64,000 bases of DNA from Sporosalibacterium faouarense (GTDB lineage Bacteria > Bacillota > Clostridia > Tissierellales > VENL01): assembly GCF_016765695.1 (NCBI RefSeq), contig NZ_JAETGO010000093.1, positions 1 to 64,000 on the forward strand, read 5' to 3'. Shown here piece by piece: positions 28,505 to 30,634 of this stretch. How positions within the stretch are numbered: position 1 is the first letter of the stretch; every line of letters starts with the position of its first letter. The notes beneath the pieces were generated by a model. That model ran no database searches. It was not told the DNA's origin and saw nothing but the letters and a program-made list of their open reading frames with translations. The translations under genes were made by a program, and so were the position numbers.

Positions 28505-28543
28505 TAAAAAGCTATGAATAGACTTTCTATTCATAGCTTTTTA
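28505..28543 (-). terminator. Terminator of grdA
   Basis: AAAAAGCTATGAATAGA and its complement around a 5-nt loop, with T runs on both strands. It lies about 45 nt past the grdA stop codon. Confidence 0.85.
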
Positions 28544-28584: not shown

Positions 28585-29061
28585 TTAATCATTAAATTCA
28601 CAGAATTCTTCCCTTATGTCTGTCATTTCTTCAATAATTTCATCAATATCTAGAACCATTTCCATCATTCCAATTTGCTCATCGTAAACTTCAGCATCTA
28701 CTTCTTCTTTGAATTCTGGCTCTACAACATGATAAACTCTAAGTCCTAACTGGACTCCCGCTAATGGACCTGCAAAGGTAGGATCTCCTGCTGTAACAGT
28801 TTCAGCTGCTAATCCTGCAGCTTCTCCTTCAGCAGCACCTAAAAGAACTATTACATTCTCAGCACCGTGTTTTTCTGTTAAATCCTTAACCCTTTGTTGA
28901 TTTTCTAAATCCATTGCTCCTGCAGCCGTTCAGACAAAACACTCAGTTGATGAAAATACTACTTCGGCTTCTGTTGACTTTAAACATTCTTCGATAGCTG
29001 GTCCTGGAATACCATCTCTATCGCCTATAATGATAACTTTTTTACCATCATAACGTCCCAT
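28585..29061 (-). CDS. grdA: Glycine/sarcosine/betaine reductase complex selenoprotein A (GrdA)
   Basis: A 158-residue selenoprotein. From ATG 29061, behind GGGTGG, the frame reads through an in-frame TGA at 28932-28930 (codon 44) and ends at 28585. The context [20 protein letters not shown] is the GrdA active site; automatic ORF calling starts falsely after the TGA. The N-terminal [21 protein letters not shown] and the rest, including [19 protein letters not shown], are typical, and the length equals that of known GrdA. GrdA takes a carboxymethyl group from protein B as a selenoether and passes it to protein C, giving acetyl phosphate; it is re-reduced by thioredoxin. trxA lies 95 bp upstream. 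Confidence 0.96.
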
Positions 29062-29156
29062 TATTGCCACCCTTTCTATAGTTCAAGTTTTATGTATCAT
29101 AATAAAATATTTCATATTTCACTTATCCTACAGATATAATACTTGATTTTCCTAAA

Positions 29157-29474
29157 TTAAATATACTTCTTAATCATGTCCTCAATATTTGTTTTGCTGG
29201 CATCATCTTTTGTAAGTTCATCAACTTTTTCTCCATTATGATAAATACATATAGTAGGTAGTCCTAATACTTTTTGCTTTATTGCTAGTCTCCTTGCTGA
29301 TGTAATGTTAAGCTTACAAAATTTAATTTGATCACCATACTGGTTTTCAAGTTCTTCAATATGTGGCATAAGTGCTTTACAAGGCTCACAACCATCACTC
29401 CAGAAGTCTACCAAAACATGTCCATCATAATTCAAAACTTCTTCTTCAAATGTTTTTTTATCAACAGCTAACAT
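29157..29474 (-). CDS. trxA: Thioredoxin of the glycine reductase system
   Basis: A 105-residue thioredoxin starting at ATG 29474, 7 nt behind GGGAGG; the longer frame has no ribosome site. The redox motif is GCEPC (C29, C32) in [16 protein letters not shown], in place of the classical WCGPC. GCxPC motifs are typical of the thioredoxins coded in grd operons. It reduces the selenide/thiol pair of GrdA after each turnover. The neighbouring gene is grdA; trxB, grdX and grdE, which usually accompany it, are not here. The 285 bp upstream (29,475-29,759) are AT-rich with nothing recognisable. Confidence 0.93.
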
Positions 29475-30284: not shown

Positions 30285-30294
30285 TCACATTAAT

Positions 30295-30634
30295 ACAAGC
30301 AAATCTATAAGCCGAGTTCTGTATCTGACGATCATCTATCTACACCTATCGTTGCCAATAGGTTCCAGCGACCTACCTACGGGATGGTGACGGGCAGCCA
30401 CCTTTTCTAGTCCCTACTTGGTCTTGCTCCAGATGGGGTTTACAGAGCCAACTAGTCGCCTAGCTGCTGGTGAGCTCTTACCTCACCTTTCCATCCTTAC
30501 CTGCGTATAAAGCAGGCGGTCTATTTCTGTTGCACTATCCTTAGGGTTGCCCCCACTGGGTATTACCCAGCATCCTGCCCTTTGGAGCTCGGACTTTCCT
30601 CATGCTTAAGCATGCGACCATCTGATTTACTTGT
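30295..30634 (-). ncRNA. rnpB: RNase P RNA (class A)
   Basis: About 340 nt. Conserved parts on the minus strand are GAGGAAAGTCCGAGCTC near the 5' end (P4 5' strand and J3/4), GGGGGCAACCCTAAGGATAG and TGCAACAGAAATAGACCGCC, and close to the 3' end CAGAACTCGGCTTATAG, which pairs to form P4. The terminal P1 helix pairs ACAAGTAAATC with GATTTGCTTGT. The layout is the ancestral A type rather than the Bacillus B type. It is the catalytic RNA that matures tRNA 5' ends. A good promoter precedes it and a terminator follows. End positions are accurate to a few bases. Confidence 0.95.

Follow-up and report, generated by a model that had tools for sequence, protein, structure and literature searches.

Most bacterial grdA genes probably direct the insertion of selenocysteine (Sec) through a natural long-range SECIS, which lies about 180 nt downstream of the UGA within the gene or else in the 3' untranslated region (3'UTR), is brought to the UGA by a helix, and seems to have been exchanged several times for a local hairpin. 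The selenoprotein nature of GrdA is long established, and this protein A is the Sec/Cys redox protein and the carrier of the carboxymethyl-selenoether that is common to glycine, sarcosine and betaine reductases. The gene, the protein and its selenocysteine 44 are therefore already known, and what appears to be new is the distant SECIS of grdA; to our knowledge, no bacterial selenocysteine signal acts from such a distance in nature. The gene from which we describe this arrangement lies in a stretch of 64,000 nt from Sporosalibacterium faouarense (the window), and its parts and neighbours are listed in Table 1.

Table 1. Features at and around grdA in the window; numbers with a plus sign are nucleotides counted from the U of the UGA.
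Feature	Position	Strand	Basis or remark
grdA CDS, selenoprotein A, 158 aa	28585..29061	-	ATG 29061, stop 28587-28585; translation, PF04723, NF040748
In-frame TGA, selenocysteine 44	28930..28932	-	CFVU motif 28930-28941; TGA in all homologues examined
Ribosome binding site of grdA, AAAGGGTGG	29066..29074	-	sequence
Proximal strand of proposed long-range helix, CAATGGATTTA	28906..28916	-	nt +16 to +26 from U of UGA
Distal strand of proposed long-range helix, CAGGTCCATTA	28762..28772	-	nt +160 to +170; best complement in gene
41-nt distal element as modelled (R1)	28735..28775	-	in this genome, here and in second grdA only
Distal SECIS-like hairpin, GAGTCC-AGTTA-GGACTT	28741..28757	-	nt +175 to +191
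Apical loop GUU	28748..28750	-	nt +182 to +184; conserved in 133 of 161 genes
Intrinsic terminator 3' of grdA, AAAAAGCTATGAATAGAAAGTCTATTCATAGCTTTTT	28506..28542	-	sequence
trxA, clostridial grd-type thioredoxin, directly 5' of grdA	29157..29474	-	NF047697, 171.4 bits (cut-off 140)
RNase P RNA (class A), 5' of trxA-grdA pair	30292..30633	- (same strand)	

When TGA is read as selenocysteine, the minus strand from 29061 to 28585 translates into 158 residues with U44 at 28932-28930, and the in-frame TGA at codon 44 completes a CxxU motif. Across this TGA the product matches both PF04723 (GRDA; residues 5-150, E=1.1e-82, 275.5 bits, cut-off 22) and NF040748 (glycine/sarcosine/betaine reductase complex selenoprotein A; 282.6 bits, cut-off 130). 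The frame that spans the TGA is not a chance one, and the start at 29061 and the selenocysteine codon proposed by an earlier, sequence-only reading are borne out by the translation and by the two profiles. That reading was also right that standard gene calling begins at codon 50, as the table-11 ORF starts at ATG 28914 and comprises 109 aa, while its description of the gene as hidden holds for callers that take TGA as a stop but not for the NCBI annotation, which already calls such genes grdA. The 109-aa ORF returned by the former could mean that translation really ends at the TGA and that the gene is a decayed relic, a reading to which we give next to no chance: TGA occupies the Sec codon in 84 of 84 GrdA copies of our first set, and no homologue has another codon there, the Sec machinery of the genome is complete, and the second grdA copy of the genome (95.6% identical in protein, 89.5% in DNA) shows 50 differences over 477 bases, 45 (90%) of them in third positions. 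As a gene, the grdA of the window is confirmed, ordinary and part of known biology.

The SelA/B/C/D machinery predicted from the Sec TGA is indeed encoded in the genome, with the tRNA-Sec gene selC on contig C61 (74.5 bits) and selB, selA and selD in a row on contig C85. The selD gene of S. faouarense is a selenoprotein gene itself, with an in-frame TGA and, about 33 nt beyond that codon, a local SECIS of the form GGCACAG-GUU-CUGUGUC (L096). The predicted glycine, sarcosine or betaine reductase was found as well, since the partner subunits GrdB/E and GrdC/D are present together with thioredoxin. The second grdA is located on contig C88, inside a complete grdX-trxB-trxA-grdE-grdA-grdB-grdC-grdD operon, 5' of which there is a sub-threshold match to the glycine-GGAnGA riboswitch (L008:4025-4206, 97.7 bits, cut-off 110); no glycine riboswitch was found 5' of the trxA-grdA pair of the window. 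Comparison of the two loci identifies the trxA of this operon as the counterpart of the window trxA. The pair lies far from the grd operon, and in Tepidibacter relatives trxA-grdA is situated within the betaine operon. A betaine reductase of the GrdH/GrdI type (grdI-grdH) is encoded next to a BCCT transporter on contig C41, without grdA or trxA. Since the full operon on C88 has a grdA and the betaine reductase locus has none, the trxA-grdA pair of the window is an additional source of protein A, in the form of an orphan second copy, and we infer that it serves the betaine reductase.

The distant element becomes visible through silent-site constraint, i.e. the likeness of synonymous codons between genomes beyond what codon usage predicts. 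In a set of 161 distinct grdA genes, mostly from Bacillota, this constraint rises from a background of about 0.03 to a peak of 0.276 (0.258 in 78 genes) over the 14 codons +53 to +66 after Sec, approximately 155-195 nt downstream, where the conserved stretch is GCAGGTCCATTRGCAGGAGTCCAGTTRGGACTY. The peak is as high as the one that grdB displays over its textbook SECIS (0.283), which is the sole peak of that gene and covers the Sec codon and the next 12 codons, and no peak was seen in grdE, grdC, grdD, trxA and trxB of the same genomes (at most 0.10). The consensus of the distal stretch can be folded into GAGUCC-[A/C]GUU[A/G]-GGACUY, a hairpin with a stem of 6-7 bp, and we assigned genes to a main class by a boundary of our own, at least five of six core pairs plus the loop GTT, by which 133 genes possess the element and 28 do not. 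Compared with synonymous shuffles the hairpin has a mean z of -2.69, with 52 of 64 genes below 0.05; its stem is preserved by way of CC/GG, UC/GG and UC/GA forms (C-G, U-G and U-A variants), and C181-G185 covaries. Its energy is -6.6 kcal/mol in the window and between -5 and -13.6 kcal/mol in relatives, values that refer to the hairpin alone. The loop GUU is also that of the local selD SECIS of this genome.

Reviews place the bacterial SECIS immediately downstream of the UGA, prediction programs assume so, and the bSECIS model has an apical loop with G and then G/U at 16-37 nt from the UGA and an energy of -7.5 kcal/mol or lower (PMC13188914). A hairpin just after the TGA, as the sequence-only reading had expected, did not emerge: the 66 nt around the UGA of the window fold no better than shuffles (z=+0.57), and a bSECIS-type hairpin within the spacing of the model was detected in only one of the 133 main-class genes, the remaining 132 failing the test. 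The loop of the constrained hairpin, at +182 in the window, lies outside the spacing of 16-37 nt. Silent sites 3' of the UGA are near background in the 161 genes, constraint being clear only at the GTC codon before the UGA. This Val codon (28933-28935 in the window) is nearly always GTC (or GTG) in all classes, and it is the only silent site near the grdA UGA under clear constraint. An ordinary SECIS right after the UGA, with the distal conservation being incidental, would be the textbook arrangement, and this genome uses it elsewhere, as Rfam SECIS_4 (RF01990) matches directly after the UGA of its grdB and grdH (58.4 and 55.4 bits, cut-off 38). For grdA we nevertheless consider it very unlikely, given the lack of a fold above shuffles in the window, the failure of all but one main-class gene in the bSECIS-type test, the near-background silent sites after the UGA, and the lack of a match to any Rfam family, SECIS_4 included, in any grdA searched.

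Just 5' of the distal hairpin there is a strand, CAGGUCCAUUR, that complements CAAUGGAYYUR at nt +16 to +26. Across the whole gene, the best partner of the segment +12 to +29 starts at +159, directly ahead of the hairpin, with a mean of -14.9 kcal/mol as against -5.3 kcal/mol (sd 2.1) for other windows of the gene. The distal strand has five silent sites whose base fits the proximal strand in 127, 121, 114, 102 and 77 of the 133 genes, for which codon usage leads one to expect 47, 63, 80, 62 and 43; where the hairpin is missing (28 genes), such matches occur at about background. Peptoclostridium species have kept the hairpin with a weaker or shifted complement.

The protein sequence (Ala-Met-Asp) dictates most of the proximal strand, which leaves a single long-range pair with real freedom to covary, namely that between the free site of this strand, nt 17, and nt 170; both are third codon positions, with a distance of 153 nt between them. 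This is the top covarying pair among 8,778 silent-silent pairs (z 8.1; next 5.3): C17 occurs with G170 in 29 of 29 genes, and U17 with A170 in 26 of 30 and with G170 in the other four. A crude count of co-changes on branches gave 7 against 2.1 expected, which is not above some unrelated silent sites, and since this count does not discriminate, separate runs on a tree were counted instead; C17-G170 held in 7 of 7 and U17-A170 in 12 of 15 runs (Fisher p=7e-4), the tree having been built without the element and the count of runs correcting for kinship among neighbouring genomes only roughly. Base composition is a partial confounder here, with a mean third-position GC of 0.49 in C-G carriers and 0.27 in U-A carriers, and grdA moves between lineages, so that codon bias, GC content, horizontal transfer or shared ancestry might be thought to have produced the silent-site conservation as an artefact. 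Such an origin is highly improbable in our view: the pairing holds at matched third-position GC (0.40-0.65; 15 of 15 C-G and 3 of 4 U-A), the constraint is limited to 14 codons of one alignment and missing from five neighbouring genes, and two copies of the element in 3'UTRs (see below) are non-coding.

With Y17 and R170 paired, U169 would bulge out and C16-G171 and G15-C172 would extend the helix, while in genes with A17 a register with A17-U169 and C16-G170 would fit. A bulged U is also a feature of the E. coli fdhF SECIS, which the U169 bulge resembles, a likeness that we take as a lead only. For the window copy the composite fold is calculated at -52.8 kcal/mol, 1.4 kcal/mol above the free minimum of -54.2 kcal/mol and thus nearly iso-energetic with it. 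The pairing of nt 4-9 with nt 169-174 that appears in this free fold was considered as an alternative and rejected, as it shows no covariation. RNAalifold, applied from the UGA to +216, recovered the hairpin and failed to find the long-range helix, which accordingly rests on the tests of complementarity, silent sites and covariation.

The 28 genes without the in-gene hairpin include several replacements. In a group of seven (B1, protein MDLE[I/V]Q) a hairpin UGGAUC-UGGA-GAUCCA stands right behind the UGA, one member (L150) having the compensated form UGGACC-UGGA-GGUCCA, and in a group of three (B2, protein MDMANQ) this position is occupied by GGCCAU-GGAC-AUGGCC, compensated in one member as AGCCAU-GGAU-AUGGCU (L192). 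A canonical proximal hairpin is hence present in 10 of 10 genes of these two groups, as opposed to 1 of 133 genes with the distal element. On the tree these local hairpins occupy some three separate spots within the main class, and the canonical hairpin was apparently gained about three times independently in lineages that had lost the element. Candidatus Petromonas tenebris (L023) and Maledivibacter halophilus (L030) have lost the in-gene hairpin and possess a copy in the 3'UTR (TAAGTCCATTG...GAATCTCGTTGGGATTC and TAAGTCTATTG...GAGTTCAGTTTGGACTC, respectively), where, free of coding constraint, an 11-bp complement of CAATGGACTTA is followed by the same kind of hairpin; a looser version of this arrangement exists at L077. 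A hairpin of another kind, GCUGCU-GGUCU-AGCAGC at +111, is present in nine genes (from Tepidibacter, Acetoanaerobium and others) and is possibly another long-range solution. Loci with the +111 hairpin and without the +175 element are L031, L032, L036, L054, L061, L063, L067, L072, L078, L080 and L215; the loop is as in the E. coli-type SECIS, and some have a shorter UAGGU/ACCUA complement upstream. The long-range strand is kept with a different hairpin at L134 and with loss of the GUU loop at L040, and six genes, among them L082, L175, L178 and L180, fit no scheme.

Within the 4.1-Mb genome of S. faouarense, a covariance model of the 41-nt element retrieves only the two copies of grdA, at E 8e-15 and 2e-14, with a next-best E of 0.5. 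The element accompanies grdA in every operon context, i.e. glycine type, betaine type, trxA-grdA-grdC and orphan. Coupling of grdA to grdB and control by glycine were rejected as explanations, the element being common to orphan, betaine-type and glycine-type grdA. It was found in Clostridia, Enterococcus, Photobacterium and a Cloacimonadota MAG (L073). Genes fetched after the idea had been formed also fit, namely those of Peptoclostridium acidaminophilum, of two Enterococcus species and both grdA copies of Photobacterium, and grdA of Acetoanaerobium noterae, likewise fetched later, has the +111 form. In P. acidaminophilum the orphan grdA (L214:1501-1977) resides on an 809-kb plasmid between genes for a peptidase and a DNA adenine methyltransferase. 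According to a 2005 survey, Photobacterium profundum has four known selenoproteins, of which two escaped detection by the SECIS criterion (PMC1242214).

Constraint and covariation reveal an RNA element and not its function, and the distal hairpin with its partner strand could be a real element with another job (in stability, processing, pausing for folding, or as the site of a regulator), selenocysteine being inserted by means of a local signal that escapes recognition. The constrained GTC codon at position -1 speaks for this, as it implies that some local signal exists. We regard this possibility as unlikely, although it is the most serious of the alternatives, since the distal element and the canonical local SECIS are mutually exclusive (1 of 133 as against 10 of 10), since the element occurs in every operon context including orphans and can move to the 3'UTR, and since its GU loop is of the bSECIS type and like that of selD in the same genome.

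Judged by comparison of sequences, which supports the gene, its UGA, the machinery, the constrained hairpin, the covarying complementarity and the replacement by a canonical hairpin, it is probable that UGA44 of the shared carrier GrdA is decoded by SelB and tRNA-Sec with the aid of a non-local SECIS presented through the long-range helix. In this process, SelB and tRNA-Sec would decode UGA44 as selenocysteine while, with the UGA in the A site, the mRNA from about +13 onwards would be free to pair. CAAUGGAYYUR, 13 nt past the UGA, could then pair with CAGGUCCAUUR over a distance of about 150 nt and form a long-range helix of 11-13 bp just downstream of the UGA. The hairpin, 3-4 nt behind the distal strand, would come to lie at the ribosome-facing end of this helix, next to the ribosome entrance, and its GUU loop would there be within reach of SelB carrying Sec-tRNA-Sec. 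SelB would accordingly bind the distal hairpin, and it would be the helix that makes the hairpin act at a distance.

If this holds true, bacterial selenocysteine insertion needs no SECIS adjacent to the UGA in sequence, the rule being one of distance in space, and the gap to the 3'UTR SECIS of archaea and eukaryotes narrows. Searches based on the SECIS would then overlook genes of an entire class, and wherever heterologous production of GrdA has failed, the reason may be a simple one. The lineages with the element in the 3'UTR or with a local hairpin in its place represent natural experiments. Our literature search yielded no paper on a distant SECIS in grdA or on a natural long-range case; older work on the SECIS of E. 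acidaminophilum was outside its scope, and priority is unproven.

Among known systems, GrdA of Peptoclostridium and Acetoanaerobium shares with the window gene the full-length match, the CxxU motif, the TGA codon, the thioredoxin neighbour, the machinery and the reductase subunits; the protein is no different, and the peculiarity of the window gene is to be an orphan trxA-grdA second copy off the operon. The archaeal SECIS in the 3'UTR is likewise far from the UGA, but it differs in its GAA_A motif, its S-S pairs and its other SelB system, and no complement to the UGA region is described for it (PMC13188914). With the canonical bSECIS the grdA hairpin has in common a short stem and a small loop with G and then G/U, within the coding sequence of a Sec-UGA mRNA (PMC13188914; RF01990). 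Unlike it, the grdA hairpin has about 180 nt between UGA and loop (about 400 nt in the 3'UTR) in place of 16-37, is flanked by a strand complementary to the mRNA just past the UGA, and has no match in Rfam. There is also an engineered counterpart, as Su, Li and Gladyshev in 2005 reportedly made a SECIS in an E. coli 3'UTR work when complementary flanks brought it near the UGA. This reported arrangement is the one proposed here for grdA; theirs, however, is artificial, whereas that of grdA is natural, widespread and conserved.
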